Source: Paracidobacterium acidisoli (GTDB lineage Bacteria; Acidobacteriota; Terriglobia; Terriglobales; Acidobacteriaceae). Taken from it: a stretch of 64,000 nucleotides of DNA. Positions 2,872 to 51,078 of the stretch are shown in pieces. Within the stretch, counting starts at the first letter, position 1, and each line of letters begins with the position of its first letter. The notes beneath the pieces are model-generated. The model did not search any database. It saw only the letters and a program-made list of their open reading frames with translations, and was not told the origin of the DNA. A program made the position numbers and the translations under genes. The stretch is from assembly GCF_003428625.2 (NCBI RefSeq), contig NZ_QVQT02000007.1, positions 62,001 to 126,000 on the forward strand, written 5' to 3'.

Positions 2872-5800
2872 TTAGAAAATGACCTTTGCGAAGAGTTGGA
2901 TAAAGCGTGGAGTATTTCTCTGGCTGCCATCGAGTGTTCCAAACGTAGCTGCCGATGGTGTGGTATAGGGACTTGAAAACCACGGATGATTGAAAGCATT
3001 GATGAAATTTGCGCTTGTCTCAACCGAGAGTCGATCCGACACGCGGAATTTTTTCTTCGCAGCCAGGTCGATAACGTTCTGTATCGGCGAACGCGTGTTT
3101 CCCATATTGTTTGGCATATAGCGAACGTTGTACTGCAGGTTAATTCTGGAGTCAGCACGCATGGCTGCCGATGAACTCCATGAACCGCCTCCGGGAGCTG
3201 TGGGAAGATAGAAACCGCTTACATCTATCAGCGGTTGTCCGGTTCCAATGAGTGAATGCTTGTAATTGAAATGCAGCTTTTGGGGATCGCCGGAGAAATA
3301 CACATTGCCGAAATCGAGAGGCGTGCCGCTCTCTCCCTGGTACATGCCGGTGGCCTGCCATCCGCCGAGGAAAGCATCCGCCCATCCCGGAAGCGTATTC
3401 AGCCACTTACGACCCCTTCCAATTGGAAGCTCCGCAACGAACGTCGCCGTGAGGTGATTGGGAACGTCGTACGGGGAAAGCGAGCGGACCGGCAGCACCT
3501 GAAAGTCGTTGTTAAATCCACTGCGCTGGATATCCTTTGACCAGTTATAAAGCACGTTGAACGAATATCCATTGCCAAAGCGGCGTATGAGGCGTGCCTC
3601 CATAGCCTGATAATTAAACGATGCGTTAAAGACTGTCTCGGTTACGGAAGTGAACTGAGGCATAGCTCCCAACAGTTGATAGACCGAAGTTGTGCTGCTC
3701 TGATTCAGGCTTGTGGAATTGACGGTGGTAGAGCCCAGGAGCCCCTGAAATGGATTTGGCACCTGTGCGGTCAGTTCGCTGATCAGATTGGTATCCCGGG
3801 TCTTCATTGTGGAGAGATATTGCTCCGGAACCGCGCCGGGAAGATTACTGTTGTTGCTTATGTGCCACCCTGTTGACCCAACATACACGACGTCGGCAAC
3901 CAGTTTGTCAGGCAATGCCTGCTGGACTTCTGCCGTCCAGTGCATTGCATAGGATGTCAGCGGATTCAGAGGGAAAAAGGTTGCACCCTGCCCAAGATTC
4001 TGGGTAAGTCCAAGACTCGAACCTGTTGGTTGGATCACTCCGTTTGGAAATGGATTGCTGATATTGGCGTCAAACGTCAGGCCATTGTTTATGGTAGGCA
4101 CCATGGTTGTGGTCTGGCTGAAGCCGGCGAGGTTGCCGCCGGCATAGTTGTCCATTGTCGTCACCCAGGGTATTTTGTACAGACCGACACCACCGCGCAG
4201 GACGGTTCCGTCATGCACGGTATAGGCCAGGCCAACCCGCGGCATAAAGACCGCGTAATCCGTATTAAAGAAGCTGCGGTGCTGACTATCTGCAAAGGTG
4301 TAACCGCCCAGCACGGAAAGGCTCGACTTCACGGGGAGTCCAGATCCAACATTCAACCCATTCGGAAAACTCGCTGCAAAGGCAGCCTGCGCGCCCGCCT
4401 GTATCGGATTCGCGGAGGTCAGGTCGAATCCGCGTGCATTGCGGTTATAGCGCTCAGTCGGTGCTCCCTCATACTCGTAGCGCAAGCCTGCGGTGAGCGT
4501 GAGCCTGGGCATTATCTTCCATTCATCCTGAACGAAGGCCGCGTGATACAGACTTTGTCCAGCGTAGCTGGCATCCACGTCAATGCTGCCGCTTGTCGGC
4601 AGACCGGTCAGGAGGCTGGCAATTCCCATTCCGAATTCCGTTGCGCTGGTATCCGTCTGGCTTGTGAAATTGCCGTTGAAGGTATACGTGCCATTGTTAT
4701 TCCCTGGCGAATAGGCGTTTATGCGGTAGAGCGTACCTTCATAGCCGAACTTAAGAAGATGCGACCCAAAGCTCTTGGTGATGGCGGCTGCCGCGGTGTA
4801 TATATTGCCAGGTCTGTCAAGGATCGATCTTGAATTCAATTCCGAAAAGTCTGTGCTGGTGAAATACGGAAAGTAGGCGGGAGCGCCGAATTGCCGAACA
4901 ACTGAGCTCGGAAATCCTAAAGATGTGTAATCGAACCCCATGGCTGCGGAGTTATAGCTCTGTTCGTAGCGATTGAAGCCAAGCCGTGCATCCAGAACAG
5001 TGGTTGGAGATAACGTGACCGTATCCGTAATGCCAAACCCGTGGTTATCGATTAGATAGGACGCCGATGATGGATTTATTCCATCAACCGCCTGAGTCCA
5101 GTTATTGATTCCATTTACCCGATGGCTCTGGAAGTAATCTGCCGCCAGATGCTGGTTGGTGCCGATGTAGTGATCTATGCGCAGCAGCCAGGCATGGTAG
5201 TTGTCGGTCTGAGCATCCGGGCTATAGTAGTTGACCGATCCATCTGCCGCAGCTCCGGGAATATTCGGCAACGGGAAGTAAGTCATGTATTTCGATCCAA
5301 TTGAATTGATGAGATTGGAAGGAATCTGATTATTCAGGAATGGGGCGCGAATTACGTGACCTCCGCTCGTTGCGGTGGCGGAAAACGGATTGTAGATCTG
5401 CTGGTTGGGGTTGCTGCAGATACCGTTGACAAAACCCGTCGTGCAAATCTCTGACAGGTCGCCGCCCCGCATCTTCTGCGTCGGAACTGTAAAGTTGGCT
5501 GGCGAGGGAGTGTAATCAAGAACATTATCCAGAAAGAAGAAGAAAAAGGTCTTGTTCCTGCCGTCATAAATATGAGGAATCATGACGGGACCGCCAATTG
5601 TGCCGCCGAAATGATTCGAGCGCTGTTCCGACCGGCGCTGGCCGAGAAGATTTGCTTTAAAGGTATTTGCATTCAATGCTTCGTTTTCAAAATACTCATA
5701 AAGAGCGCCGTGAGGAGTATTTGTGCCGCTCTTTGTATTCAGATTGACGTTTGCGCCTGCTGTATTCCCATCAGATGAGTTGTACCATTGGGATAGCACT

Positions 5801-6519
5801 TTGACTTGATCAATAGCTTCCGTCGGAGGCACAAATGCCATCCTTGTATAAGTATTAATGCTTGTAAAAGTGCTGTCGACGCCGTTATCGGGTATGCCGT
5901 TCAGATAAAACGAGCTTGCTCCGGGAACTCCATTCATTTGAAATGCGGTGATCGCGCCATTGTCAAATACACGGCTGTAATATGGGTTTCCTGTCCACAC
6001 GCCTCCGCCTAACAGACGAAGAACCATAACCGGATTTGAATCGGCAAGCGGGAGCTCGCTCATGTCTTTTTTGTCGAACAGTTGAGATACGTCCGCATTC
6101 GCAGTTTCCAGCACTGCATCTTCACCGCTGACAACCGTGATGTTGGCAGACGTTCCGCTGACTTTCAGCGTCACGTTCACCTTGACCTCCTGAGCGGTAT
6201 CAAGCTTCAGATCGCGCATCTCCCAGTGTTGAAAGCCGGAAGCATCCACGGAAAGCACATACGTCCCAGGGTCGATATAGTTCAGAGCATAATCGCCTCC
6301 CGCATCTGACTTAACAATTGCTTCGACACCCGTTGCCTGATTGTGGAGCGTGACCTTTGCACTGGGAACAGCAGCTCCGGTCTGATCTGCAACAGTACCT
6401 GTGACGCTGGCGCGATATTCCTGAGCGCTTGCAGACACGCTGTAAAGAGAAAAAATTAACACACAGAAAAGCGCGACTCGTCGTGGCCACCCTGCAAAGG
6501 TCCGGCTAAACGCCTGCAT
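2872..6519 (-). CDS. Oar-like TonB-dependent outer-membrane receptor
   Basis: This 1215-residue outer-membrane protein has a signal peptide (residues 1 to about 32, ending SASA), then a carboxypeptidase-regulatory-like beta-sandwich (about 35-119). A plug-like region and a long beta-barrel follow, ending in a C-terminal Phe as outer-membrane proteins do. Such receptors, expanded in Acidobacteriota, are thought to import peptides or glycans with TonB energy; the substrate cannot be told here. The start at 6519 is chosen because AGGAGG lies 4 nt upstream; a reading frame 16 codons longer has no ribosome site. It lies 233 bp downstream of the sigma/anti-sigma pair on the same strand and is their likely target. 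A paralogous receptor lies at 39598-42762. Confidence 0.93.
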   Translation of the reverse strand: MQAFSRTFAGWPRRVALFCVLIFSLYSVSASAQEYRASVTGTVADQTGAAVPSAKVTLHNQATGVEAIVKSDAGGDYALNYIDPGTYVLSVDASGFQHWEMRDLKLDTAQEVKVNVTLKVSGTSANITVVSGEDAVLETANADVSQLFDKKDMSELPLADSNPVMVLRLLGGGVWTGNPYYSRVFDNGAITAFQMNGVPGASSFYLNGIPDNGVDSTFTSINTYTRMAFVPPTEAIDQVKVLSQWYNSSDGNTAGANVNLNTKSGTNTPHGALYEYFENEALNANTFKANLLGQRRSEQRSNHFGGTIGGPVMIPHIYDGRNKTFFFFFLDNVLDYTPSPANFTVPTQKMRGGDLSEICTTGFVNGICSNPNQQIYNPFSATATSGGHVIRAPFLNNQIPSNLINSIGSKYMTYFPLPNIPGAAADGSVNYYSPDAQTDNYHAWLLRIDHYIGTNQHLAADYFQSHRVNGINNWTQAVDGINPSSASYLIDNHGFGITDTVTLSPTTVLDARLGFNRYEQSYNSAAMGFDYTSLGFPSSVVRQFGAPAYFPYFTSTDFSELNSRSILDRPGNIYTAAAAITKSFGSHLLKFGYEGTLYRINAYSPGNNNGTYTFNGNFTSQTDTSATEFGMGIASLLTGLPTSGSIDVDASYAGQSLYHAAFVQDEWKIMPRLTLTAGLRYEYEGAPTERYNRNARGFDLTSANPIQAGAQAAFAASFPNGLNVGSGLPVKSSLSVLGGYTFADSQHRSFFNTDYAVFMPRVGLAYTVHDGTVLRGGVGLYKIPWVTTMDNYAGGNLAGFSQTTTMVPTINNGLTFDANISNPFPNGVIQPTGSSLGLTQNLGQGATFFPLNPLTSYAMHWTAEVQQALPDKLVADVVYVGSTGWHISNNSNLPGAVPEQYLSTMKTRDTNLISELTAQVPNPFQGLLGSTTVNSTSLNQSSTTSVYQLLGAMPQFTSVTETVFNASFNYQAMEARLIRRFGNGYSFNVLYNWSKDIQRSGFNNDFQVLPVRSLSPYDVPNHLTATFVAELPIGRGRKWLNTLPGWADAFLGGWQATGMYQGESGTPLDFGNVYFSGDPQKLHFNYKHSLIGTGQPLIDVSGFYLPTAPGGGSWSSSAAMRADSRINLQYNVRYMPNNMGNTRSPIQNVIDLAAKKKFRVSDRLSVETSANFINAFNHPWFSSPYTTPSAATFGTLDGSQRNTPRFIQLFAKVIF

Positions 6520-6752
6520 ACATCCTCCTAAAAAAATTGAAAAAATGCGCTTCCATGCGCCAGGCAAGACCTGTGGTCGATACAGAAAAGCCGGCTATGT
6601 TTTGCGTGTTGATAAGGTGGAGTTTTTCTAGAGGAGGGTGCAGGATTGATATTAAAGTACGAAGAATTTCGGCTCGTGATAGCGATTTGCTTTCAAGGCA
6701 CGAGAGACAAGCGCACTTGTAACGTGTCGAGCAGCGCCTGTGCTCAGCTATG

Positions 6753-8234
6753 TCAGTTTCGAATCAGAAGGCTGTTCACCTGCTGCAGACTGGCGTCGAA
6801 AGTTGTATCGGCCGAATCTGAGCCGCGCCACAGAAGTTCGTGCAAAGAAGCATCCAGGCGCATTGCTTCGGCAAGCGTAAGCACATGCGAAGAAGAGCCT
6901 GGACGCGCGCTGAACATGGGCTCGATATTTGCAGAGAGTCCGGCCTCCAATTCTCCCAAACTCCGTTTTTCTGCTTCAACAAGCGCGGCCATGTCTTTTT
7001 CGCAGGAGCAATGCGCCAGGGCAGCACGCCGCTTTTCCAGCTTGTCGACAATAAAGGCACGTCCAAGAATCTTCTGAGAAAATCGCAGCGCCTGATTGCT
7101 GAACTCGGCTCTGGCTTCCGAATTCTCGTACTGCTGCCTGAGCCAGTCTGTTGCCAGCGCCGGCGCTTCTCCCGTGATGTGAATCCTGGCGGGAAACAGA
7201 TCGCTGATGTCGCCCGGATTCGCGGCGAAATGAATCTCCAATGAGATGCCGGGGTATGCCGCAAACTCTTTTTCCACTGCCTGTTTCCGGTTATCGTCCG
7301 GGACAACTGCCTTTACCCGGACATCCGGGCCGTTCCGCAGAACGATCGCTTCCCAGCCGGAATCAGCATTTAGTTGATGCAATGCCATCCAGGCCTGTAC
7401 CTCCAATAAGTCGCCCGGATTATCCACATATTGCGGCTTTGGAGGAACTACCTTAGTGACAATGTCAGCTACTGGCAATACCGCCGGCAAAGGCTCAGTA
7501 TCTTCGGAAATACTAACTTCTTCGTCGTCGATGAAATCCAGCGTCAATTTCGTTGGATGGAAATCGGAGGCTCGCAATTCCAGGCTTGCCTCGCGAACGG
7601 TATCATCTTCTTCTGCAATCGTCCGGATTTCCCATGAAGCATTATTTTTTATGACATGGTCCGTACGGTGCTTCAGCGCCGATCGCCACGCCGCATAGGT
7701 TCGCGCTGAAAGCGGGTTCCCGCTGGCCCATCGTGTTTTGTTTATGTGCTGCAATGCGCTGTGGCAGCGCACGGATGTTTCCAGCAAAACCAGTTGCTCG
7801 CTTCGTCTTCCGCTGGCGCAGATTTGCCCGCTCACCTGGATTCGGAATCCTGCAGCTTTGCTCCCATCGGTCTCATGCTGCATCGCATCCGAGAGGAGTT
7901 CGCTGGCGTTTACCGCCGGAATCATGCGCGGATAGAAAAGAAGAATGGCCAGGACACAGAGGCAACCCGCGACCACGGCAAGCGCGGGCGTCCAGGGGAA
8001 CGCAAATTCCTTCCGATTCTTTATCAGATCCCGGGCAGGCTCCCCTAAAGCCTCCTGGTATCCGATCTCCGCCATGTGCCCGATCACAGAATGTACGAAT
8101 TGGAAATCCGCGAACTCCCTGCGGCAGGCAGCGCACTCCACCAGATGCTTTTCCGCTAACTGCCGATCATTCGTCGAGAGCCGTTGCCCGGCCAGTTCCA
8201 GCAACGCTTCTTCTGTAAGGTGTTTAACTCTCAT
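6753..8234 (-). CDS. Zinc-finger anti-sigma factor with periplasmic domain
   Basis: The 493-residue protein has an N-terminal anti-sigma zinc-finger motif (His30, Cys34, Cys37 in KHLVECAACR), one membrane segment (about 82-101) and a 390-residue periplasmic part. It would hold the ECF sigma factor encoded immediately upstream at the membrane. Its ATG overlaps the sigma stop codon (ATGA), so the two are translationally coupled. The periplasmic part shares recognisable blocks with the fused protein at 36537-39566: NASELLSDAMQHE against SARDILNRSIQAE just after the membrane segment, and VPDDNRKQ against VPDDSRKQ later. The two modules are therefore paralogous, one split and one fused. The signal that releases the sigma factor is unknown. 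Confidence 0.88.
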   Translation of the reverse strand: MRVKHLTEEALLELAGQRLSTNDRQLAEKHLVECAACRREFADFQFVHSVIGHMAEIGYQEALGEPARDLIKNRKEFAFPWTPALAVVAGCLCVLAILLFYPRMIPAVNASELLSDAMQHETDGSKAAGFRIQVSGQICASGRRSEQLVLLETSVRCHSALQHINKTRWASGNPLSARTYAAWRSALKHRTDHVIKNNASWEIRTIAEEDDTVREASLELRASDFHPTKLTLDFIDDEEVSISEDTEPLPAVLPVADIVTKVVPPKPQYVDNPGDLLEVQAWMALHQLNADSGWEAIVLRNGPDVRVKAVVPDDNRKQAVEKEFAAYPGISLEIHFAANPGDISDLFPARIHITGEAPALATDWLRQQYENSEARAEFSNQALRFSQKILGRAFIVDKLEKRRAALAHCSCEKDMAALVEAEKRSLGELEAGLSANIEPMFSARPGSSSHVLTLAEAMRLDASLHELLWRGSDSADTTFDASLQQVNSLLIRN

Positions 8235-8950
8235 CGTTTCTGTGCAGGCTGCAACCTGGCGCGAACTTTTTTTACCACACTCAGAGTAACTCTACGCGCC
8301 GTCCATCGGGATATTCCGAGCACCGAGGCAATTCGGGCATAATCATATCCCCGGAAATACATCAGGACGCACTCGCGCTCGCGCTCAGAAAGCTCGCTCA
8401 ATACCTTTGCGCTCAGGCGAACCATGGCCTGGTCAATCACACGCGCTTCTGGAGAAGGCTGACTATCCGGAACATCCAGCACTGTGCGCCTGCCGTCATC
8501 GGTCACGGTATCCAGAGAGGTGTGCAAATCCGGTCGCCGCTCACGAAAACTGCGAGAGGCCAGACGCCTGGTCACAACTCGCATCCATGCCCCCACCCAT
8601 TCCACTGTCTTGCCTGTAGCTTCCGCACGAAACAATTCGACGAATGTTTCCTGCGTCAGGTCCTCTGCTTCAGCCCAGTCATGCACCAGGGAGTATGCGT
8701 AGTGAAAGATTCGCTTCCATGACTCCGCATGAATGCTCTTTGCTGTCGCCCCAAACTCATCCTGGCTCCCATGATTGGGTTCTTCTAAGGGTAATGGGGG
8801 ATTCAACGAAGCACCGCCGCCTGTTCTTAATCTCTCAATGTATTTGCGAAAAGACTGTACCACTCTCACTTGTACAAACGATGAACAATGCGCTGCGCTA
8901 CACTGACAATCTCGCTGGTACAAATTACCGGGCAGGCCACCGTAATCCAT
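8231..8950 (-). CDS. ECF-type RNA polymerase sigma factor
   Basis: This 239-residue protein has sigma region 2 around residues 60-120 (YSLVHDWAEAEDLTQETFVELF) and region 4 near the C-terminus (LSERERECVLMYFRGYDYARIASVLGISRWTARRV, positions about 185-220). It should direct polymerase to the receptor gene downstream and perhaps its own promoter. The start is uncertain: the ATG at 8950 has only a weak AAGAAG upstream, and a GTG at 8869 would remove 27 residues without touching region 2. It overlaps the anti-sigma gene by 4 bp. Confidence 0.88.
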   Translation of the reverse strand: MDYGGLPGNLYQRDCQCSAAHCSSFVQVRVVQSFRKYIERLRTGGGASLNPPLPLEEPNHGSQDEFGATAKSIHAESWKRIFHYAYSLVHDWAEAEDLTQETFVELFRAEATGKTVEWVGAWMRVVTRRLASRSFRERRPDLHTSLDTVTDDGRRTVLDVPDSQPSPEARVIDQAMVRLSAKVLSELSERERECVLMYFRGYDYARIASVLGISRWTARRVTLSVVKKVRARLQPAQKR

Positions 8951-9009
8951 CCATTCTTCTTTTAGAAGAACTGAGATCCTTGATCGGACCCGTTCCAACG
9001 AGGGAGCAG

Positions 9010-9840
9010 ATGACCAAGAGCAGGTTTTTTCGACAGGTGTTCTTAACATTCCTGTGCTGCGTGCCCGCCATGCAGCCTTTGGTTTCACAACAGGCAGAAT
9101 CGGCAAAACCGGCATGGATTGCCGGCATCGAAAGCGCGCGGCTTGTGGACATTACTTCATTGGAAGGAACGGTCTACCATGTGCAAGGCATCGATCTTGA
9201 CCAGGAACATGTCTGGGTGACCTCGGTGGATAGCCAAAACAAAAGGGCATATCTGCATCAGTTCAACCGGACGACAGCAAAGCTGGAACGCACAGTGGAC
9301 CTTACGGATGGCCGGCGTTATCATCCCGGCGGATTTTCCATCTATAAGGATTCCATTTGGGTTCCGGTTGCTGAATATAAGCCTCACAGTTCCGCGGTAT
9401 TGGTGGAACTGGATAAGAATACGCTGAGAGTAAAACGAAGAATTGTGGTTCCTGACCATATTGGCTGCCTGGCGGTGACAGACGACAGCCTCGTCGGCGG
9501 GAACTGGGATAGTGCGCAGCTTTATGTCTGGAACGTAGAAGGGAAGCGGGTGCGTGTGATAGACAACCGCTCCGGGCATGGCTATCAGGACATTAAATTC
9601 GCCGCTGACGGTGATCTTGTCGGCTCAGGCGGCGGTGCCGTCGATTGGTATTCCTGGCCATCGATGAAGCCTGTGCGCAGCCTTCACAGCGGAAGCACTG
9701 ACAGAGGTAAGCCCTATACGAGCGAGGGGATGGCAATTAAGGGAAACGATCTTTACTTTCTTCCGGAGGATGGCCCAGCAGCCCGACTTTTTCACTTTAG
9801 TCTTGCCGAGCCCGGGATATCGCCACTTTTCCACAGGTAA
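9010..9840 (+). CDS. Secreted DUF6454-type beta-propeller-like protein
   Basis: This 276-residue protein has an N-terminal signal peptide (hydrophobic FFRQVFLTFLCCV, cleavage near residue 25). The mature part resembles the DUF6454 family as I remember it: HVQGIDLDQEHVWVTSVD, RYHPGGFS, IWVPVAEYKPHSSAV, DHIGCLAV, GGNWD, YTSEGMAI and FLPEDGP. The repeated short strands suggest a beta-propeller; no enzymatic activity is established. The ATG at 9010 is preceded by AGGGAG. An in-frame extension to 8644 overlaps the divergent sigma gene and is rejected. It is the last gene before the left boundary of the island. Confidence 0.8.
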   Translation: MTKSRFFRQVFLTFLCCVPAMQPLVSQQAESAKPAWIAGIESARLVDITSLEGTVYHVQGIDLDQEHVWVTSVDSQNKRAYLHQFNRTTAKLERTVDLTDGRRYHPGGFSIYKDSIWVPVAEYKPHSSAVLVELDKNTLRVKRRIVVPDHIGCLAVTDDSLVGGNWDSAQLYVWNVEGKRVRVIDNRSGHGYQDIKFAADGDLVGSGGGAVDWYSWPSMKPVRSLHSGSTDRGKPYTSEGMAIKGNDLYFLPEDGPAARLFHFSLAEPGISPLFHR

Positions 9841-10142
9841 AAATCGTTCCCAACCGTTCCCCCAAATACCTACCAGCGCTACGAACTCCTTAGAAGTCGC
9901 TCCTTTCTAATCTATCTAAAACCGCAATATGTAGGACTGGGTACGTTCCAGATTACCCTCTTGTGGTTATCCTGGGCCGCGACCGGTGTTTTCGACTGCA
10001 CAAAACCTGAGGCTGTCATTGCAATCCGACGAATATCGGAACTGGCCAGTCAAAATGGACATATAGTTTTCTGCACCTAACTGAGAACCAGCCTATTATC
10101 CTCAATTGCTCAACCTTGAGCGATCAGCAGCCAAAATTTGTG
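9841..10142. other. Gene-free stretch before the island boundary
   Basis: No convincing coding frame, RNA gene or terminator was seen here. It separates the DUF6454-type gene from the first tRNA-like repeat at 10143. Confidence 0.6.
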
Positions 10143-36209: not shown

Positions 36210-36536
36210 AGCTGGGCCGTGAGCGCAGGTACAGGCCAGCCACTGGTCGGTCGTGGGGGGCGCCCGACATGCTTTTCCTCGATTGTTAAAGAGTGAAAAA
36301 TCACCCCTAAACTACCCTCGCCCAGTGAAAAAACTTGCAGAAAGGCCGATTGTGGCGGCTGAGGGGCCACTCCACATCACACATTGCCTGTCTCATCTAT
36401 GTCTAAGGGGATAAGAGGGTTGAGCGGGAACCGCACTCTGATGAGGTCGAATTGCCTGGTCTTCGGCGCAACTGTAACAGAATATTTATAAGGTGCGAGG
36501 GTAGATTGGCTCCCAAAAACCACTCTTTAAGGGCAA
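36210..36536. other. Gene-free divergent promoter region
   Basis: No coding frame is convincing. A 10-bp inverted pair CTACCCTCGC (36312-36321) and GCGAGGGTAG (36495-36504) flanks the middle. The second arm is 33 bp before the sigma-fusion ATG, so it could be a looping operator. The evidence is weak. Confidence 0.4.
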
Positions 36537-39500
36537 ATGGATCAAAACAGGCAACAGCGACAAGCGCCGGCATCGGCGCCAGCGGTCAGGACTGAGCAGG
36601 TCCTCGAACGCTACTACGGTCAGCTCGTAGAATGGGGCACCCTTCTGACGCGAGGCGATCAGAACAAGGCCCAGGATCTCGTTCACGATTTTTGCCTGCA
36701 CCTTACTGTTACGAAACCAGACCTGAGCGCCGTTCGGGATATGGACGGCTACCTCTACAAATCCCTTCGGAATATTTACGTTTCAGGGCTGGCCCAATCG
36801 TCTCGTGAGGCCTTACAGCTCGTAAGCATTGCCGAATACGATTCGGTTCAGCTTGCCGCGATGCCGCGTCATGCGGGGGACCCGTTACAGCGCCAGAACG
36901 ATCTGCGCAGAATTTGTTGTTACGCGGTTTGGCGCAAAGCTCAGACCAAGAGCGCCAGTTATTTCATCCTCCGCTACTTTCACGGCTATCACCATCAGGA
37001 GATTGCCGATCTCGCCTGCGTGCCGATCTCCGCAATCTACAACAAGTTCAGAGCATTCCGAGTAGAGGTTCGATCCTATCTCGAAGCTCCGCGAAAATTA
37101 CAATTCACCAGCCGCGAAGTTCCGCCTGTGCCGGCGCTGCGTTGGACTCCGCTGTCTTCGATTGACCTCTTCAAAGAACTACGCAAGAGCATTCTCGATG
37201 CACGAACAGGGGATTGTTTACCTGAAGAGGAGCTGATTGCGTTTTACACCTCGGAGCGTCCAAAGCCGCTCTCCTGCTCACTCCTGTCCCACATCGTTAG
37301 CTGTGAACACTGCCTCGCGCTGGTTGACAGTCACCTGCAGCGTCCGACGCTGAAGGATCGTGAACCGCTCGACGAGGTGGGGGATATTTCCGATGGCGCG
37401 GGTACTGAAGCAGGCAAGCCTGCCGGAATGTCCCGCGAGAGACTGCTGCGGTCGGTTCGTCGGTACAGGACTGAGGTTCTCGAACATCGACCGAGGACGC
37501 TGTCGATTGCTGTCGATGGCAAGATTCTTGCGTCGCACGATGTGCAGGCGCAACGGAATGTGCTGTCGGCCAGGATTGACCGCCCGGAAAACGCCAGCTT
37601 TGTCGAGGTGTTCAGCGAACAGGGCATTCGTCTCGCGCTGATCTCCATTGGCGAGCTGCCGCCGGAAGGCCCACACGGCCAGACACAACGCGTAGACCTT
37701 AGTGATGACCGCTGGCTGGATCTGAGCCTCTCATTCGATGGCCTCGGGTTGAATAGCGAGGTCGTCTACTTCGATCCAGCACTCGCGCCCGAGCTGATGG
37801 AGGAGGACGATTCGGATGAATTCGTAAGAATCCTGCCCCGGCCAGAACCGAGCCGTGCAGGTGACGGAAACATACTGTCGTGGCCCCGCACCTCGGCCTG
37901 GCTCGCAGCCGTTCGTAAATTCCTCCGTCCAATTACGCCCTCCCCTGTGATTGCTTGGTCGTTGGTCATTGCCAGCGTATTCTGCGTTGCTGGCTATTTC
38001 GTGCTCCGCAATGACAAGACTGTGCCTGTTCTAAGCGCCCGCGACATTCTCAATCGGTCTATCCAGGCGGAAGCGGCAAGTCTGGAGGGACAGACCGAGC
38101 ATCAGGTGTTCCGCTTTGAGGAAGCAACCGCCGATGGCAGCATCCTTAAGCAAGGAACCATCGATCTGTGGAAGGATGGCGACGGCAAGAGGTACATGCG
38201 CCGTCTCTATGATGTGCAGCATCGGCTCATTGCGGCTGAATGGTCACAGCGCAATGGCGACCGCGGCGAGTATCCCGTGGCCGAAGACTCACAGGCCTCC
38301 GGTGCAAACCGTGAGATGCTGGCTGACAATCTCTGGAAACAGGATGTCTCGCCCAGCGCATTCCGCGAATTGAACGGCGAAAACGCTCAGATTCGTGCTA
38401 CTGAAGATGGATATGAGCTAACAGCTACCGAAACGGGAGTCTCCCACCCGCAGCTCATTTCTGCGACTCTCGTCCTCGACCATCACTACCATCCCATTCG
38501 TGAAGTGATGCGAGTGCGCAACGGCGGCGAGGTCCGTTTCGTACAGGCTGACTATGAGCGCAGGCCGTCTTCATCTGTTCCTGATGCAATCTTCGATCCG
38601 CAAGATCAGGGACTACGCTCTAAAGTGGAGCGGCGCCCATTCTTCTCTAAAAGCGTTATCAGCGATGTGCAGTTGGCCGAGCTGCACATCGCTGTGCTGT
38701 ATCAACTCAATAACCTCGGCGCCGACACAAGTGAACCTATAGACGTCGAAGAAACTCCCGATGGGCGAGTGCGCGTCACCGGAGCTGTACCGGATGACTC
38801 TCGCAAGCAGCAGATACTCGCACGTCTCAATCTGCTGGAGAACCATCAGCTTCTCGAAGCACATCTGTTCTCTCCAACCGATGTCCAGAAACCCGGATTC
38901 AAGCGTCCTCGGGTCATCGGTAGCACGATAAGCACATACGATGTTGGCCAGACAAAAGCCCCGGCAGACGCAGCTCTGCGTGGATTCTTCCAAGCGCAAG
39001 GCATGTCGGGAACAGCGTTAGATGCTGCTGTCGTCGGGTTCTCGCGTGATGCGCTGGGGCACTCGCAACGCGCACTGCAACATGCCTCCGCGCTGAATCG
39101 TCTCGGCAGCACTTTCCCGATCTTCGAGCTTGGCTACGTTAGCCTCCCGTCACAGCAACAGTGGACGGAACTGGTGGCGAAGCACACCATGGCGTTAGAA
39201 GTTGAATTGCGTGCTCTGCATGACCAGTTAGCTCCGCTAACTCCCCTCCGCGATCAGCAACCGAGTATTGGCCAAACTAATCCCGCGATCGAGAACCCCG
39301 CACAATTTGCCCGTCAAGCAAACCAGCTTCTCGGCAAAACCCAGGACTTGAATCGAACTGTCGGTAGCATCTTCGCATCCGGCCAAGAGCCAGAGGAACA
39401 ACCACCTGGCCTCGATTCCTTGGTAGCTGCTACCAGCAAGGCAATCCCACTGCAGGAAGCAGTGGAGTTAACAAGTTTCGCTGTTCAGTTGAACGCATCA

Positions 39501-39566
39501 GGGAGAACAGCATCGATAAGCCGGCAACAAAGCAGGCCCGATAAGCAGACCCCTAACCAACCATAG
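36537..39566 (+). CDS. ECF sigma factor fused to a transmembrane anti-sigma factor
   Basis: This 1009-residue fusion has sigma region 2 at about 21-90 (RYYGQLVEWGTLLTRGDQNKAQDLVHDF), region 4 at about 138-182 (FILRYFHGYHHQEIADLACVPISAIYNKF) and a zinc-finger anti-sigma motif with His252, Cys256 and Cys259. A cytosolic beta-rich domain (about 318-415), one membrane segment (471-490) and a 520-residue periplasmic domain follow. The periplasmic part is homologous to that of the separate anti-sigma factor at 6753-8234 (VPDDSRK block near 760). A sigma factor tied to the membrane would need proteolysis to act. The next gene (31 bp on) is the TonB receptor, the likely target. The ATG at 36537 follows AAGGGC. 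Confidence 0.88.
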   Translation: MDQNRQQRQAPASAPAVRTEQVLERYYGQLVEWGTLLTRGDQNKAQDLVHDFCLHLTVTKPDLSAVRDMDGYLYKSLRNIYVSGLAQSSREALQLVSIAEYDSVQLAAMPRHAGDPLQRQNDLRRICCYAVWRKAQTKSASYFILRYFHGYHHQEIADLACVPISAIYNKFRAFRVEVRSYLEAPRKLQFTSREVPPVPALRWTPLSSIDLFKELRKSILDARTGDCLPEEELIAFYTSERPKPLSCSLLSHIVSCEHCLALVDSHLQRPTLKDREPLDEVGDISDGAGTEAGKPAGMSRERLLRSVRRYRTEVLEHRPRTLSIAVDGKILASHDVQAQRNVLSARIDRPENASFVEVFSEQGIRLALISIGELPPEGPHGQTQRVDLSDDRWLDLSLSFDGLGLNSEVVYFDPALAPELMEEDDSDEFVRILPRPEPSRAGDGNILSWPRTSAWLAAVRKFLRPITPSPVIAWSLVIASVFCVAGYFVLRNDKTVPVLSARDILNRSIQAEAASLEGQTEHQVFRFEEATADGSILKQGTIDLWKDGDGKRYMRRLYDVQHRLIAAEWSQRNGDRGEYPVAEDSQASGANREMLADNLWKQDVSPSAFRELNGENAQIRATEDGYELTATETGVSHPQLISATLVLDHHYHPIREVMRVRNGGEVRFVQADYERRPSSSVPDAIFDPQDQGLRSKVERRPFFSKSVISDVQLAELHIAVLYQLNNLGADTSEPIDVEETPDGRVRVTGAVPDDSRKQQILARLNLLENHQLLEAHLFSPTDVQKPGFKRPRVIGSTISTYDVGQTKAPADAALRGFFQAQGMSGTALDAAVVGFSRDALGHSQRALQHASALNRLGSTFPIFELGYVSLPSQQQWTELVAKHTMALEVELRALHDQLAPLTPLRDQQPSIGQTNPAIENPAQFARQANQLLGKTQDLNRTVGSIFASGQEPEEQPPGLDSLVAATSKAIPLQEAVELTSFAVQLNASGRTASISRQQSRPDKQTPNQP

Positions 39567-39597: not shown

Positions 39598-42500
39598 ATG
39601 TCTCGACAGATTCATGCCGTATACCTGAAGTGTCTTTTCTCCCCGGTGCTGCTACTCGCAATCGCGTTGCCCGCGCTGGGCCAGTCCACCGCTACTGTCA
39701 CTGGTATCGTGCAGGATACATCCGATGCGCGCATTCCACATGCGAACGTCAAGCTGATCAACACGCAGACTGGGACAGAGAGCACTTCACAAACAAATAA
39801 CGCCGGCGATTTCGCTCTGCCAAATGTGATGCCAGGTCATTACACCTTGCAGATCGAGCGCGATGGATTCGACACAACCCAGCTCACCGGAATTACCCTC
39901 AATGTCGGCGATAACAAGAGTGTAATCATCCGAATGAAAGTCGGTTCAAAAAATGAAACCGTCACAGTTGATGGCAGAGGCCTCACGATTAACACCACAG
40001 ACGCTTCGGTAAGCACGGTCATTGACAGAAAGTTTGTCGAGAACACTCCGCTTAATGGACGTAGTTTCCAAAGCCTGATTTTGCTTACGCCCGGCTCAGT
40101 GACAAATACCCCTCAGCAGGCCGCGAGCATCGGCAACTCCGGCGAATTCAGTATCAATGGCCAGCGAACAGAATCTAACTATTACACCGTTGATGGAGTA
40201 AGCGCGAATGCAGGTATTGCTGTAGGTGTAGGCGGCGGCGGGACGAGCGGCTCCTTGCCGGCATCGACGGCATTGGGGACAACTCAAGCCTTAGTCTCGG
40301 TGGATGCACTACAGGAATTCCGAGTCGAAAGTTCGACGTACTCAGCTGAATACGGCCGCAATCCGGGGGGACAATTTTCAATGGTGACCCGATCGGGAGC
40401 AAATGACCTACACGGGTCCTTATTCGACTATTTCCGAAACGATGCACTTGATGCAAACAATTGGTTCAATGACAACACCGACCCAATCACAAGGAGGACT
40501 GCGGAACATCAAAATGATTTCGGAGGGACCCTAGGTGGCCCGATTCGTTTGGGGAAACTTTACAACGGCACCAATAAGAGCTTCTTTTTCGTTTCTTATG
40601 AGGGGTTGCGTCTATTAGAACCAGTGGCGGCGTCAATAAACCCGGTGCCAGATGCCGCATTGCGCCAATCCGCGGTCGGTTTGATGCAAAACGTTCTAAA
40701 CGCGTTTCCAAAGCCGACGATGAGCACTGATTTGACGCCAGGATTAGCGGCCTTTGTTGGCAGTTGGTCGAACCCAAGTCAGGAAGATGCGACGAGTATA
40801 CGAGTCGACCACTCCCTTGGATCAAGAGATCACTTATTCTTTCGGTTCAGTGATACCCCTTCAAACTCGTCGACGCGCGGTACTTCCACAAATTCCAGCC
40901 CGTCTGTCGTGTCTACTTATCAATATGCGACAAAAACATACACCTTCGGCAATACCTTCGTCCTCAAACCCTGGCTGACGACAGAAACGCGTCTCAATTT
41001 CAGTTCGAACAACGTTACAGCGCACGAGACAAATGACAACTTCGGCGGCGCTGTCCCTGTCGATCTGGCCGCCCTAGAAGGCATTAGTACAGATTCGCAA
41101 TCGCAGGTAGCTCTTGTCATTGGGGGGTATGATCCAACTCTCATTCAACTGTACGCAACGAGCCAGCAGCAACAGTGGAATGTCGTGCAGACGTTGATCG
41201 CACAACGAGGAAGACACACAATCAAAGTCGGCATTGACTGGAGGCGCGTCGCTCCGTTTGCAAACGTAGGATCGCCCTCCGCCGCCTATTACTTTTACAG
41301 TCCAACAACAGCAGCGAATAACAGTGTCGATATAGGCCTGGGTGAATCCAGCGCGAAATTTTATCCGGTCTATATGAACTTTTCTGTATTCGTACAAGAC
41401 GAGTGGCGAATCAGTCAGCGCCTTTCGTTATCGGGAGGTATCCGCTGGGATGTTAATCCTGCTCCTGGAGTTAGGCAAGGGCTGATGCCATACACGGTCA
41501 AGGGACTTTCAAATCTTTCAACCATGACCCTCGCTCCACAGGGGACGCCTTTGTGGAGCACAGCTTGGTACAACTTTGCTCCTCGCCTTGGTGTAGCGTA
41601 CACCCTGGACACCGTACCTGCTCACCTTACCGTTTTGAGAGCGGGGGCTGGGGTCTTTTTCGATACCGGTCAGCAAGTCGGATCAGCCGGATATTCGGGT
41701 GTTGGCCTAAGTGCCAGAAACTATTTCGGATCCGAGTTCGGGACCACCGCGGCTTTTCCTGCGCCTGTAAGCGAGGTAACACCAGCAATTAACCCACCGA
41801 CACCAACGTACTCGACGGTATACACAAATCCAGCCAACCTTCAGGTTCCCTACACCTATCAATGGAACGTCAGCCTAGAGCAAGCCTTGGGAAATCTCCA
41901 GTCGCTGACTATGTCCTACGTTGGGTCGAACGGAAGAAAGCTTCTCCAGGAAACAGAGCTCAGCGTAGGCGCACTCAATCCTTCGTTTTCGTCACTTGTG
42001 GTCTACACGAATGGGCTGACCTCCAACTACAATGCCTTGCAGGTTCAGTTCAAACGCCAAGTGAGCCATGGGCTTCAGGCTCTTGCGTCGTACACATGGT
42101 CTCATTCTCTTGACTATGGCTCATACAACACTGATTTCCCCTATCAATATGGCAACTCCGATTTTGATGTGCGTCACAATGCTACGGGCGCGTTGTCGTA
42201 TGACATTGGCGGACTAAAGGGGAAATCCTGGCAACACATGCTCAGTTCCGGATGGGGGTTGGATGGACGCTTCACTGCCAGAACAGGTTTCCCGGTCACT
42301 TTGGAGGGGAATTCATCGTTTGATCCGGTTACCCAAGAACTATATTTCGGCGGTTTGGATCGCGTACCGAATGTTCCGGTTTATATTTCGGGCACCACGA
42401 TCTATGGCAAACAACGCATAAATCCGCTTGCATTCACTGTACCGGCAGACGGAGTTGTAGGGAATGCGCCGCGGAATTTTGTCACCGGTTTCGGCGCCGT

Positions 42501-42762
42501 GCAAACCGATTTGGCAGTCAGGCGCTCCTTCAGCATTTTTGAGCGATTGAATGGGCAGTTCCGTATCGAGGCATTCAATCTACTGAATCATCCAAACTTC
42601 GGAATTATTGGATCTACATGTTCGTACTCTGAGGGCCCTTGCACGAATGTTCAGTTCGGACAAGCGACTGCGACGCTGTCTCAAAGCCTTGGAGGATTGA
42701 GCCCTATCTATCAAATGGGCGGTCCTCGCTCCCTGCAAGCGTCTCTGCGCTTGAGCTTCTGA
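39598..42762 (+). CDS. Oar-like TonB-dependent receptor (second)
   Basis: This 1054-residue outer-membrane receptor has a signal peptide ending ALG, a carboxypeptidase-regulatory domain (about 33-115), a plug with PLNGRSFQSLILLTPG, and a large beta-barrel ending in SLRLSF with C-terminal Phe. GGAGGACCA precedes the ATG. It is encoded directly behind the sigma/anti-sigma fusion and before an S9 peptidase, which suggests uptake of peptides. It is a paralogue of the receptor at 2872-6519. Confidence 0.94.
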   Translation: MSRQIHAVYLKCLFSPVLLLAIALPALGQSTATVTGIVQDTSDARIPHANVKLINTQTGTESTSQTNNAGDFALPNVMPGHYTLQIERDGFDTTQLTGITLNVGDNKSVIIRMKVGSKNETVTVDGRGLTINTTDASVSTVIDRKFVENTPLNGRSFQSLILLTPGSVTNTPQQAASIGNSGEFSINGQRTESNYYTVDGVSANAGIAVGVGGGGTSGSLPASTALGTTQALVSVDALQEFRVESSTYSAEYGRNPGGQFSMVTRSGANDLHGSLFDYFRNDALDANNWFNDNTDPITRRTAEHQNDFGGTLGGPIRLGKLYNGTNKSFFFVSYEGLRLLEPVAASINPVPDAALRQSAVGLMQNVLNAFPKPTMSTDLTPGLAAFVGSWSNPSQEDATSIRVDHSLGSRDHLFFRFSDTPSNSSTRGTSTNSSPSVVSTYQYATKTYTFGNTFVLKPWLTTETRLNFSSNNVTAHETNDNFGGAVPVDLAALEGISTDSQSQVALVIGGYDPTLIQLYATSQQQQWNVVQTLIAQRGRHTIKVGIDWRRVAPFANVGSPSAAYYFYSPTTAANNSVDIGLGESSAKFYPVYMNFSVFVQDEWRISQRLSLSGGIRWDVNPAPGVRQGLMPYTVKGLSNLSTMTLAPQGTPLWSTAWYNFAPRLGVAYTLDTVPAHLTVLRAGAGVFFDTGQQVGSAGYSGVGLSARNYFGSEFGTTAAFPAPVSEVTPAINPPTPTYSTVYTNPANLQVPYTYQWNVSLEQALGNLQSLTMSYVGSNGRKLLQETELSVGALNPSFSSLVVYTNGLTSNYNALQVQFKRQVSHGLQALASYTWSHSLDYGSYNTDFPYQYGNSDFDVRHNATGALSYDIGGLKGKSWQHMLSSGWGLDGRFTARTGFPVTLEGNSSFDPVTQELYFGGLDRVPNVPVYISGTTIYGKQRINPLAFTVPADGVVGNAPRNFVTGFGAVQTDLAVRRSFSIFERLNGQFRIEAFNLLNHPNFGIIGSTCSYSEGPCTNVQFGQATATLSQSLGGLSPIYQMGGPRSLQASLRLSF

Positions 42763-42773
42763 ACGTAACAGAC

Positions 42774-45084
42774 ATGGAACAGAACAAAATGACGAAACAG
42801 ATTTCAGCCTTTATAGGTATGCTGACATGGCTCGCTGCACTAACCCCCTTCATGCTAGGGCAGCGAGCCCTCATTCTTCCGAAAGATTGCGTGGAAGTTC
42901 GCTATATTCAGGGTCTTTGGCCGAGCCCTAATGGCGAACATCTCGCATATCTTGTCAAAGTACCGAACCTCGCTACCAATCAGAACGAATTTGAACTTTT
43001 CGTCCGTGATACGGATTTAGACAAGCAATCCTCGGGGCGACTACTCGTTACTGCACAAGATGTTAGCAGTGTCATGTGGTTACGCAATGAACATGCGATA
43101 GCTATCGCTCGCAAACCTAGACGGCAAGCGCCAGATCATGATCGTCGACGTGCTTTCTGGAAGTATTACCCGTGTTCTTGTTTCCCCCGACACAGACTCG
43201 TTCAGCATTAGTGGGCATGGTACAACGATCGCTTATAGTGTCTTGAACAGAGAACCCGAGAGAAAGAAGCCTGGCGGTGCTGAGGCTGAGGGCTACCGAA
43301 TTGCTTTTGATGAGGATACAGAGGTATTGCATCCAACGCACTCATTTTATGTTCTGAAACAAGGACAAGACGATACGTGGACACAACCCCAACTTCTCAC
43401 GATACGAAATCCGATCACCAATGCGCGTGAGACGCAGTTGGTGGTCAACTCTCATTTCACCGAAATCAGCCTCTCACCGGACGGGAATCAGTTGTTGTTT
43501 CAATACATGACGCCAGCTCTACCTAAAAGTTGGTATGACGATCCGATAGTGAAGCTATATGCCGTCCAAAATACCTTTTTCGAAATTCTTGTTCGATATG
43601 ACCTTACAAGGAAGGAGACTTCACTAGCCTTCGACTCCATTTCCACGTCGAGCGTCCCTGTGTGGTCCGATGACAGCAAGACATTCTTTGTCAATGCGTA
43701 CTCACCTGTTGCAAGCGCATGGCAGGCAGACGATGTGCATGACAATCTCGCTCGTCCAAATAATGCCAATCTGTTTGCTGTGAACTTTGAAAGCGACACA
43801 ACCGTCGAACTTGTTCGCCACATCAGCTTTTACCATGAGGCTCCAAGCCTTGGAAGCAATGGTAGAAACCTCGTCGTTCACGTAGCTGGAAATATGATCG
43901 CACGAGTCGACTTTGATCGGAACGGATGGCGCGAAACTGGACGTGAAAGTATTCCGAGCGGCGAACTGAATAGAATTTCTGCTGTTGCGTCGAATGGCCA
44001 CACTACGTTTGTTGTCGCGGAGGCTGTAACAAGACCAGAGGATATATTTGGATATAGATCAGGAGAGCAACGCTTACACGTATTGACGGATTTGAATCCT
44101 GAAATTCGCTCGCTTGAATTCGCGAAAATTAAACAAGTCGATTGGAGTGTCGACGGCAAATACACGGCAAGTGGGTTGCTCTTCCTCCCGCCTGACTATA
44201 CACCTGGCAAGCGCTATCCCCTTGTCATTCAGACCAAGGGAGAGCAAGGATGGTTTGCTTGCGACTCTGGTTTCAGCCACTCTCCATCCTTCGCTCCCGA
44301 GCCCCTTGCCACTGCAGGAATCGCATACCTCGCACCATTTTCTAAGCCTTCGGCGGGTGGACCGACGACACCACATCAGCTGGATGGTCAGTATCCAGGA
44401 GGTGTAGCAGAAGCTGTTGACCAAATGAAGATGTGGGACAGCGCGGTGGATGACCTAGCCCGCCAAGGGCTGATCGATCCATCGAAGGTCGGCATAATTG
44501 GGTTCAGTCGTACTGGGTTTCACGTTGAATTCAACTTGGCCCATGCCAAAACACATTACGCGGCGGCGACCGTTGCTGACAATGTCTCATATAGCCTTGC
44601 AGAGTATCTGTATCTACCCGATGATTCTCATGCCGCAGATGCTATGTTTGGCGGCCCGCCTTTCGGGGCAAGTCTTGTGAATTGGGAGCGGTATTCAGTG
44701 TCCTACAACTTGGATAAAATCCGGACGCCTCTGCTCATGGAAGAGATGGGCTATGGAGTTCATGATGACAATTCAGAGAAAATTCCGCTCGATCTCGTGC
44801 TCAGCTATGAAATCTATCGAGGGTTGCGCATTCGAAAGAAGCCTGTAGAGATGTACTACTACCCCGATGAAGAGCACCAGCCTGACCATCCTAAAGCACG
44901 GCTTGCTAGCATTACACGCAATCTGGATTGGTATAGATTTTGGCTCCAGGGATATGAGCATCCCAATCCCGAAGACCCAGATCAATACAAACGCTGGGAG
45001 CATTTGCGCGAGTTGCGAGATGCCGACCAAAAGGCCACTGGGCCAATCAACAATGATTCCCAAACATCCGAGGCCCCGCGCTAG
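42774..45084 (+). pseudogene. S9 (prolyl-oligopeptidase-type) peptidase with a frameshift
   Basis: The N-terminal part (MEQNKMTKQISAF, signal peptide ending MLG, then propeller strands) is read from 42774. The rest, from about 43105 to 45084, is in the +1 frame (LANLDGKRQIMIVDVLSGS onward). It keeps the catalytic Ser in GFSRTG and a plausible Asp/His near the end (YYYPDEEHQ). The break lies near 43101-43125: upstream the frame reads WLRNEHAIAIA and runs on to a stop at 43211. It is a disrupted gene or a sequencing error. The intact enzyme would cleave imported peptides outside the cytoplasm. Confidence 0.82.
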
Positions 45085-45915: not shown

Positions 45916-46734
45916 TTAGAGCTTCACACCGATCGCCACCGAAGTCGGACGCCCAGCCTCTTTGGTAAGTCTGATGTGGCCATCACATCTTGTCGTCAAC
46001 ACCCGCCTGGTCTGCCCGTTGGACCATACAATCCCTGTTGCATGCTTCGAGTAGTCATGCTCCTGAGAATCATGGACTATGCTCTTGTCGGACAACAATA
46101 CGATATGCGGCTTGCAGTAGCTAAAGACCTCTTCTGCGTATCCAGCGTTTCGTCCGTGATGGGATGCTATGAAGAAGTTGGTTTCCTTCAAGCATTGGCA
46201 GAAAGCTGGTTGCTTCATAAGCTCTAGCCAGCCTTCACGCTCCAAGTCCCCAGGAATCACGATTCCGCAGCCGTTATATTCTAGAAATGTTACGAGGCTG
46301 AGATTGTTCATGTCTGTGAACGCTGGATATTGATTGTGGAAGTAGGTAACCTTCACTCCTCCATAGTTTGGTTGCACCGTCACAGGATGTATCCAGTGCT
46401 CGTGCATATCGAGGGCACTGGCCATTGCAGTCGTAATTCCTCCATTGCTTTCCTTTTGCCTCCGAATGAAGTCGACCGGGATGCTACGGTTGCGCGCGAC
46501 TGTACTGAAACTGACGACCTTGCGAAGGGCAGGGAGAATCGCTACATGGTCCTGGTCAAAATGGCTGAGTGCAAGACCGTACATGGTCTCGATCTTACGA
46601 TCAGAAAAGTATCTGGAGGGGTAGAACTGAAGTCCATCGTCGTATCCGCAGTCAAAGAGAAGGGCTAATCCACCCGGCGTTGTGGCATACGCGCAGAATC
46701 CGTGACCGACGTTGAATAGTGTGAAGGTGAACAT
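45916..46734 (-). CDS. MBL-fold hydrolase (ComEC-like), second in operon
   Basis: This 272-residue metallo-beta-lactamase-fold protein begins MFTFTLFNVGHGFCAYA. It has the metal motif HFDQDH, then CGIVIPGDLE and ASHHGR, as in ComEC/Rec2-type soluble hydrolases. The likely activity is metal-dependent hydrolysis, perhaps of nucleic acid or a nucleotide signal; the substrate is unknown. It starts directly after the stop of the four-TM gene with no spacing and is the last gene of the operon. Confidence 0.85.
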   Translation of the reverse strand: MFTFTLFNVGHGFCAYATTPGGLALLFDCGYDDGLQFYPSRYFSDRKIETMYGLALSHFDQDHVAILPALRKVVSFSTVARNRSIPVDFIRRQKESNGGITTAMASALDMHEHWIHPVTVQPNYGGVKVTYFHNQYPAFTDMNNLSLVTFLEYNGCGIVIPGDLEREGWLELMKQPAFCQCLKETNFFIASHHGRNAGYAEEVFSYCKPHIVLLSDKSIVHDSQEHDYSKHATGIVWSNGQTRRVLTTRCDGHIRLTKEAGRPTSVAIGVKL

Positions 46735-47508
46735 TCAGGCGGTTCCTTTCCTAGCCCGCCCTTTGCTAGATGGCGAGTCACCGTTGATGGAGTCTGCAGT
46801 CTCAGCCAAGCGTTCTGCATAGGCGTCTGCGGGGATGCGAACCCAATCGGGAGTGAACCGAAATGCCCAAAGCAGAAGAATCGCAAAGACGCATATCAAG
46901 GCGCCTATGGATTCTGTGGTGATTATTTCCGAGATTGAGTGCAGGTGGTAAAGCCATACAGCGCCGCCTGCGAATGAAAGAGAACTCACAACGATGCCCA
47001 ATGGTCGGAGGCCGCAAACGTTACGGCGATAGCCGTAACTGATGTTCTCTTGGAAGACCAGCGGGTACTTCTTCGTATCGCGAGTGTGAATTCGGAGATA
47101 GGACGACCATGCGCTATACACTTGGTCAGCAATAGCCGGGTCGGCGGCTTCTTCTTCAGGAGAAGGTGCTTTCGTGCCTTTGACAAGTGTTGACAACTGC
47201 TTGTGATAGCGCGTCTTGGTTATTGCATCTATCCGAGTGTCCCGATGGCGAAAGATTGCGGCCGATGGAAGCCCTCCCCATGCCTCGAAGAATTGCTCCT
47301 CACGTTTCTTGCCGGCATCACGGGCAAGCTGAGTCAGCAAGAACGCGCCGCCACATCCCGCTAAGACCGTAGCGAACGACTCAAGCGTAGATAGTTTTGT
47401 TGAGGCCACTCCGACGATAGTGATGACGATCGGCGCAATCAGCAACAACGCTGGATAGAGGCGTGCCTTTCGCTCATAGCCGTCCGTGATTAGATTGAGC
47501 GGAGTCAT
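46735..47508 (-). CDS. Four-helix membrane protein, putative effector
   Basis: This 257-residue protein has two N-terminal membrane helices (about 17-34 and 42-61) and two C-terminal ones (about 173-195 and 203-222), separated by a cytosolic domain of 110 residues with TRYHKQLSTLVKG and YSAWSSYLRIHTRD. I recognise no family. The start overlaps the stop of the E2-E1-JAB gene (ATGA). In defence operons a membrane protein in this position is often the killing effector; here that is inference. Confidence 0.75.
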   Translation of the reverse strand: MTPLNLITDGYERKARLYPALLLIAPIVITIVGVASTKLSTLESFATVLAGCGGAFLLTQLARDAGKKREEQFFEAWGGLPSAAIFRHRDTRIDAITKTRYHKQLSTLVKGTKAPSPEEEAADPAIADQVYSAWSSYLRIHTRDTKKYPLVFQENISYGYRRNVCGLRPLGIVVSSLSFAGGAVWLYHLHSISEIITTESIGALICVFAILLLWAFRFTPDWVRIPADAYAERLAETADSINGDSPSSKGRARKGTA

Positions 47509-50907: not shown

Positions 50908-51005
50908 TACTGCTCCATGAAGTGAATTTGAGTCAGAAAGCGGGGCCCAATTGTCACAGATCGAATCCTCTTGCAAATCCCCCGAAGGCGTTTTACAGTT
51001 GGGTA

Positions 51006-51051
51006 TATCCGACTGGTTGTAATTATCCGACGAAGAGTCAGTCTGGGTCAA
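51006..51051 (-). promoter_or_regulatory. Promoter of the E2-E1-JAB operon with operator repeats
   Basis: On the minus strand TTGACC (51046-51051) and GATAAT (51022-51027) are separated by 18 bp. Direct repeats TATCCGAC at 51024-51031 (over the -10 box) and 51006-51013 (at about the start point) are 18 bp apart, fitting repression by the XRE protein encoded divergently. Confidence 0.6.
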
Positions 51052-51078
51052 CACTTTTTTACGACGGGTTGCTAAATA

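Follow-up and report, generated by a model that had tools for sequence, protein, structure and literature searches.

Proteins in which a sigma factor is fused to its anti-sigma factor have been described from several groups of extracytoplasmic function (ECF) sigma factors, namely IutY in ECF243, the actinobacterial ECF48, ECF52 and ECF53 with their zinc finger and membrane helices, and some ECF36 members (PMC8999054). IutY of Pseudomonas putida, the partner of the receptor IutA, is a single-chain sigma/anti-sigma protein released by Prc and then RseP, and has been called unique among receptor-coupled systems (PMC5411451; PMC9249621). For ECF52 and ECF53/ECF48, proteolytic activation has been proposed (PMC5826349; PMC8999054). 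In Fec-type signalling (FecI/FecR/FecA), receptor, membrane anti-sigma factor and ECF sigma factor are encoded together as separate proteins, with FecR and STN domains. Here, we describe a family of fused proteins from Acidobacteriota, represented by the gene at 36537–39566 (forward strand) of a 64,000-nucleotide (nt) stretch of the Paracidobacterium acidisoli genome (contig NZ_QVQT02000007.1, positions 62,001 to 126,000; hereafter the window). The family has an ECF52-like anatomy in an IutY-like genetic setting and is a member of neither group, as it lacks a defining feature of each. We read the fused protein as a one-polypeptide cell-surface signalling system with an exchangeable sensor half, in which a ligand sensed by the receptor would lead to proteolytic release of the sigma factor and transcription of the operon; we give this reading a probability of roughly 0.6.

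The gene is a single uninterrupted reading frame of 1009 codons, in which the following parts stand in order from the N- to the C-terminus, with the receptor gene next to them:

36537..37085, forward strand: divergent ECF sigma domain, regions 2 and 4, residues 1 to about 183 (NCBIfam sigma70-ECF, region 2 in the family, profile match for region 4)
37149..37349, forward strand: zinc-ligand anti-sigma-like domain, C227-x24-H252-x3-C256-x2-C259 (motif and position)
37461..37790, forward strand: conserved cytoplasmic beta-sandwich domain, residues about 309–418 (alignment, occurrence only in the fused form, structure model)
37947..38003, forward strand: transmembrane helix, residues 471–489 (mean hydropathy 2.27)
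38004..39563, forward strand: periplasmic sensor, 520 residues (homologous to split anti-sigma sensors, hhalign)
38670..38873, forward strand: BON-like stretch within the sensor, residues 712–779 (weak match to the Pfam YscD BON-like model at residues 735–765, E 0.041)
39598..42762, forward strand: TonB-dependent receptor with CarboxypepD_reg and OMP_b-brl_4 and no STN match (Pfam), beginning 31 nt after the fused gene

Like IutY, the protein unites sigma and anti-sigma factor in one chain with one membrane helix and has a TonB-dependent receptor as partner; unlike IutY, it has 1009 rather than 374 residues, and the accessible parts of PMC5411451 and PMC9249621 mention neither a zinc motif nor a beta-sandwich for that protein. 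IutY is described there with a FecR-like periplasmic part, and Fec-type systems share with the fused family the joint encoding of receptor, membrane anti-sigma factor and ECF sigma factor; neither the FecR domain (15 proteins) nor the STN domain (8 receptors) was detected in the fused family, which differs in this from both. The combination of sigma domain, zinc finger, membrane helix and long extracytoplasmic part in one chain recalls ECF52 (SCO4117 of Streptomyces coelicolor; PMC5826349) and ECF53/ECF48 (PMC8999054). These groups are reported from Actinobacteria only and have no outer-membrane receptor, whereas the fused family is acidobacterial and has a TonB-dependent receptor adjacent. 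ECF52 has a proline-rich stretch together with a carbohydrate-binding module (PMC5826349), while Pfam gave no match to such a module among 15 fused members. An existing ECF group number of the 2021 classification may already cover the fused sigma domains; among the literature matches listed, no description of the acidobacterial family was found.

A preliminary description of the window had read one frame as joining sigma factor, anti-sigma factor, membrane helix and periplasmic part, and had suggested looking for the same fusion in other Acidobacteriota. The fusion is genuine: 21 intact fused genes, encoding proteins of 929–1031 residues, were found in 13 genomes of this phylum, and six of these genes are paralogues in the window's own genome. 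Searched within the phylum only, a beta-sandwich profile matched 12 of 399 genomes of the class, each of them from the window's family. The 21 places matched there comprise 19 intact fused frames, a single broken copy and a remnant. In a draw from the whole phylum, the profile matched 10 of 396 genomes; among these matches are a multicopper oxidase and two intact fused genes from two additional families (the two genome draws overlap and are not independent). In neither search was the beta-sandwich found in split anti-sigma proteins. The broken copy (L032 of G401, contig CAHJWL010000007.1, an Acidobacteriaceae assembly from a lichen metagenome) is split into several frames, and its receptor is also broken. 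Such a copy is what could be cited for an assembly artefact, i.e., a sequencing error that joins two genes. Yet its first frame still unites sigma domain, zinc motif and beta-sandwich, with the breaks falling later and in the receptor, and the 21 intact frames across 13 genomes already refute an artefact for the family, so that we regard this explanation as practically excluded.

Some further matches lie at the edges of the family. The remnant (L074 of G010, 3678–10001) retains part of the beta-sandwich (57% identity with the window protein over 123 residues) and lies close to a 275-residue frame resembling a split sigma factor, a 407-residue frame and a receptor that shares 39% identity with that of the window, as if a split system stood next to a decayed fused one. 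The multicopper-oxidase-like protein (L115 of G585, 4557–6023; named by eye) matched the beta-sandwich profile with E 6.9e-5 in its genome (hhalign probability 84%, E 8e-6). This sole match outside the fused family in both searches may be a remote relative in fold and was not counted. A scan of genome contigs with five family members gave two loci only, and the verrucomicrobial one (L033) contains an ordinary ECF-like frame of 163 residues.

Counts out of 15 members are based on an alignment of 15 fused genes, from which later finds and a cut copy in G084 were left out. Sigma regions 2 and 4 had been proposed from the window copy, which matches the NCBIfam sigma70-ECF model at residues 20–169 with E 2.4e-5, under the model's curated cut-off, and gives no match to Pfam sigma region 2 at E 1. 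Across the family, Sigma70_r2 was matched in 13 of 15 members (Pfam, E 0.1 or better) and sigma70-ECF equally in 13 of 15 (NCBIfam, E 0.001 or better). Region 4 is less well recognised (Pfam Sigma70_r4_2 in 2/15); in a search of Protein Data Bank (PDB) sequences, positions 134–179 of the family profile matched this region in a sigma factor of known structure (E 8.8e-4). That search retrieved ECF sigma factors for the whole-family profile and no significant match to any of the remaining parts, while separate profiles of the beta-sandwich and of the sensor had no match with E of 0.04 or below. The sigma identity is real, though weak in the window copy alone, and firm at the family level. Most members also retain a DLVHD stretch, which we take to be core-binding, and the helix-turn-helix.

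In a tree of 19 fused sigma domains, 12 split sigma factors and 14 other ECF sigma factors of the window's own genome (three duplicates and frames of at least 330 residues were dropped, and the split locus L021, whose sigma gene was not found, was left out), the fused domains form one group (support 100/99) away from the split ones, and the stem of this group measures 1.79 changes per site. Upstream of the fused genes, alignment within sigma subclades (18 of the 21 genes, three starts moved by hand) uncovered conserved blocks, one of which lies in the window:

36498..36507, forward strand: conserved upstream block AGGGTAGATT, candidate promoter element (ten bases, subclade alignment)

Four of the five genes in the window's subclade (window, L063, L065 and L070) carry it upstream in identical form, and it was not seen before the fifth, L055; in a second subclade, all three genes keep GGCGAATAT and GATTCGC at equal spacing. 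Only the within-subclade alignment brought out these blocks; an unbiased upstream motif count (20 of the 21 genes) barely exceeded shuffles. The blocks are candidate promoter elements that may reflect autoregulation. The long stem and the silence of Pfam region 2 on the window copy are also what would be expected of a sigma-like part that no longer initiates transcription and acts as a decoy or scaffold, the protein regulating another sigma factor. With region 2 recognised in most members, the DLVHD stretch and helix-turn-helix retained and the upstream blocks conserved within both subclades, we consider such a role very improbable.

The zinc-finger anti-sigma motif of the preliminary description was recovered as HxxxCxxC in all 21 fused proteins, where a Cys or His always precedes it by 20–26 residues, and H252, C256 and C259 are invariant in the 15 aligned members. 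The ligands align between the fused and split anti-sigma profiles, with a probability of only 2% (E 0.023), and the Pfam zinc-finger model gave no match in the 15 members; since the profile comparison with split anti-sigma proteins is weak, the assignment as a putative anti-sigma domain rests on motif and position. The beta-rich domain was borne out as a predicted eight-stranded beta-sandwich, the best of five models (input of two sequences) reaching a predicted local distance difference test score (pLDDT) of 86.7 and a predicted template modelling score of 0.79, with the other four at pLDDT 62.7–68.2. Foldseek found no PDB match to this model at E 0.001 or better, and the best VIA-align rows were immunoglobulin-like domains (Z 5.8, root-mean-square deviation 2.6, 72 aligned), a generic likeness in a common arrangement. 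The single membrane helix followed by 520 residues also held, as residues 471–489 are the sole stretch above the hydropathy threshold in the window protein, and a peak occurs at the corresponding place in 19/19 fused proteins. Nine of these 19 have an additional weaker stretch barely above the threshold in the cytoplasmic part (about equally strong in L058 and L068), and for this reason the topology of the fused proteins is only a predicted one. A full-length structure prediction (input of four sequences) had a mean pLDDT of 39.5 and was not used for folds; in this low-confidence model the BON-like stretch runs helix-strand-strand-helix-strand. Separate synthesis of the anti-sigma half from the window gene is unsupported, as the only internal start candidate before the zinc motif is a GTG lacking a Shine-Dalgarno match in the stretch tested; in four of the 21 fused genes, this stretch does contain a start that has a Shine-Dalgarno match.

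The two halves of the protein have different histories, the sensor half having been exchanged between relatives. A paralogue from the same genome (L055, listed also as L002) is 51.7% identical to the window protein in the cytoplasmic half and 27.4% in the periplasmic half, while its periplasmic half shares 41.7–46.5% identity with the sensors encoded by seven other fused genes (L056–L062) and about 43% with those of two split anti-sigma proteins from its own genome. In windows of 60 columns, identity between the two paralogues stays at 47–65% up to about residue 425–448, except in the linker preceding the beta-sandwich, where it dips to 36%. Around the membrane helix it drops to about 20%, and there the likeness to the other sensors rises; the identity profile places the exchange point in the juxtamembrane linker. 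Tree topology tests rejected the fused sensors as one clade with p 2e-5 (31 rows), which weakened to p 0.029 after dropping six long rows, and the sensors of the window protein and L055 as sisters with p 2.8e-41, a pair picked after the trees were seen.

A split module of related composition lies elsewhere in the window:

8231..9115, reverse strand: split-form ECF sigma factor (longest possible start; Sigma70_r2 E 1e-9, Sigma70_r4_2 E 7e-8)
6753..8234, reverse strand: split-form transmembrane anti-sigma factor (4-nt overlap with the sigma gene)
2872..6567, reverse strand: TonB-dependent receptor after the split pair (Pfam OMP_b-brl_4, E 4e-170)

The ATGA overlap reported earlier is present, the sigma stop codon occupying 8233–8231 and the anti-sigma start 8234–8232. 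The split pair (6753–9115) and its acidobacterial homologues share with the fused family the sensor, the membrane helix, the HxxxCxxC motif and, in six of 12 cases, a receptor gene next to them; unlike the fused form, they consist of two genes, with a different ECF lineage and no beta-sandwich found. The fused and split anti-sigma sensors are homologous at the profile level (hhalign probability 100, E 3.1e-75). The alignment of the window's two loci, as the preliminary description had suggested, gave a best match over a 46-residue sensor stretch (E 1e-4) and no significant match between the sigma parts (best E 0.075), which belong to lineages far apart in the tree. Consequently, the idea of a split and a fused form of the same module stands as regards homologous sensors and related loci; as the sigma lineages differ, the beta-sandwich was found in the fused form and in no split anti-sigma protein, and only the sensors are clearly homologous, the two are not two states of one module. 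Near the split sigma gene, a 555-residue frame (10225–11892, reverse strand) reads like a large serine recombinase (named by eye).

The preliminary description spoke of receptor stimulation but left unmentioned the receptor gene that begins 31 nt after the fused gene and points to the likely function of the protein. A TonB-dependent receptor follows 20 of 20 assessable fused genes (a complete frame in 19 of the 21; that of L056 begins and runs off the contig, and the contig of L055 ends before it could be judged), with a 4-nt overlap of the two genes in four loci (L063, L065, L070 and L113), and all eight receptors scanned with Pfam carry CarboxypepD_reg and OMP_b-brl_4. Sensor and receptor distances are correlated (Mantel r 0.46, p 0.0003), also when controlling for sigma distance (r 0.42, p 0.001), while sigma and receptor distances are not when controlling for sensor distance (r -0.03, p 0.60); the set comprised 17 of the 19 fused genes then known, L055 and L056 being dropped for want of a full receptor. 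This covariation fits direct communication between sensor and receptor.

Several observations weigh against the favoured reading. The covariation may be simple linkage, the sensor and receptor segments being neighbours, and the fused sigma domain is very divergent. With STN in 0/8 scanned receptors (of 20) and FecR in 0/15 fused proteins (Pfam, E 0.1), the known receptor-sensor contact is not seen. Moreover, receptors follow only six of the 12 split homologues; the other six (L075, L076, L018, L020, L029 and L031), the sensors of which resemble the fused type B, are followed by frames with no detected receptor domain (two complete, of 1309 and 1374 residues, and four available for their first 296–387 residues only), so a sensor of this kind need not read a receptor. 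The frame after L075 shows weak NHL/Reg_prop repeats. These six pairs and the missing STN domain would also suit a sensor that reads something other than the neighbouring receptor, such as the state of the envelope or a soluble ligand, the receptor being just a member of the regulon. As the receptor adjoins every assessable fused gene and sensor-receptor covariation exceeds that explained by sigma distance, we judge this alternative unlikely, though it is the strongest of the rival explanations.

Under the preferred reading of receptor-driven release, the covalently attached zinc-motif domain, together with the beta-sandwich, would hold the sigma domain of the unstimulated cell at the inner membrane and off RNA polymerase. 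Once the neighbouring receptor binds its ligand outside, its N-terminal region would touch the periplasmic sensor and unfold or expose it; a periplasmic protease would then trim the sensor and an RseP-like site-2 protease would cut the membrane helix, freeing a sigma-containing cytoplasmic piece that would transcribe the operon and hence the receptor. Proteolytic release seems the likeliest mode by analogy with IutY, and the window's own genome encodes an M50 protease frame of 475 residues, a second, weaker M50 match and five S41 proteases. Because the zinc-motif domain and beta-sandwich sit between sigma domain and membrane, the freed piece would, unlike that of IutY, still contain the inhibitor, and since this remains attached after the membrane cut, a further step would be required, either a cytoplasmic cut in the variable linker between sigma and zinc domains after region 4 or a conformational change. 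That cleavage alone may not activate the protein, and that a cytoplasmic beta-sandwich unseen in split forms stands between zinc motif and helix, could also be taken to mean that the sigma factor is active while anchored, by a conformational change across the membrane with no cleavage, transcription starting at the membrane. As the known fused sigma/anti-sigma protein IutY is released (PMC5411451), and as the linkers flanking the zinc motif and the helix are long and variable in the alignment of fused members, we find anchored action quite improbable.

The sensor half is swappable between different cytoplasmic halves. More tentatively than the reading of receptor-driven release itself, a modular family can be envisaged in which the sigma/zinc-motif/beta-sandwich cassette recombined at the juxtamembrane linker onto different sensors, including those of split pairs, with an activation step beyond that of IutY in which the beta-sandwich would be the gate, and with receptors that would signal via the carboxypeptidase-regulatory-like domain in place of STN.

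Downstream of the receptor, the window contains a further gene that recurs at a second fused locus of the same genome (L057, 3–2097):

43138..45084, forward strand: S9 prolyl-oligopeptidase-like protein, downstream of the receptor (Peptidase_S9, E 7.7e-8)

The S9 peptidases beside these two fused loci hint that peptides may be the substrate. Farther on, a gene group on the reverse strand (45916–51054) with PADLOC matches to E1-E2, JAB, PDC-M48B and RTasMBL/LmuA, encoding an E1-E2/JAB protein and metallo-beta-lactamase-like proteins, is a candidate anti-phage system; a capP-like protein is encoded at 51521–52495 (forward strand).

While IutY has been called unique, the fused genes described here make up a whole family, with six copies in one genome. 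L055 is a natural chimera in which sensor and switch are separable at the membrane. With this family, two questions become accessible to experiment: how a sigma factor gets freed when its inhibitor is part of the same protein, and how a TonB-dependent receptor with no STN domain signals inward. The exchange of sensors implies that signals from outside the cell can probably be reconnected to one and the same switch.

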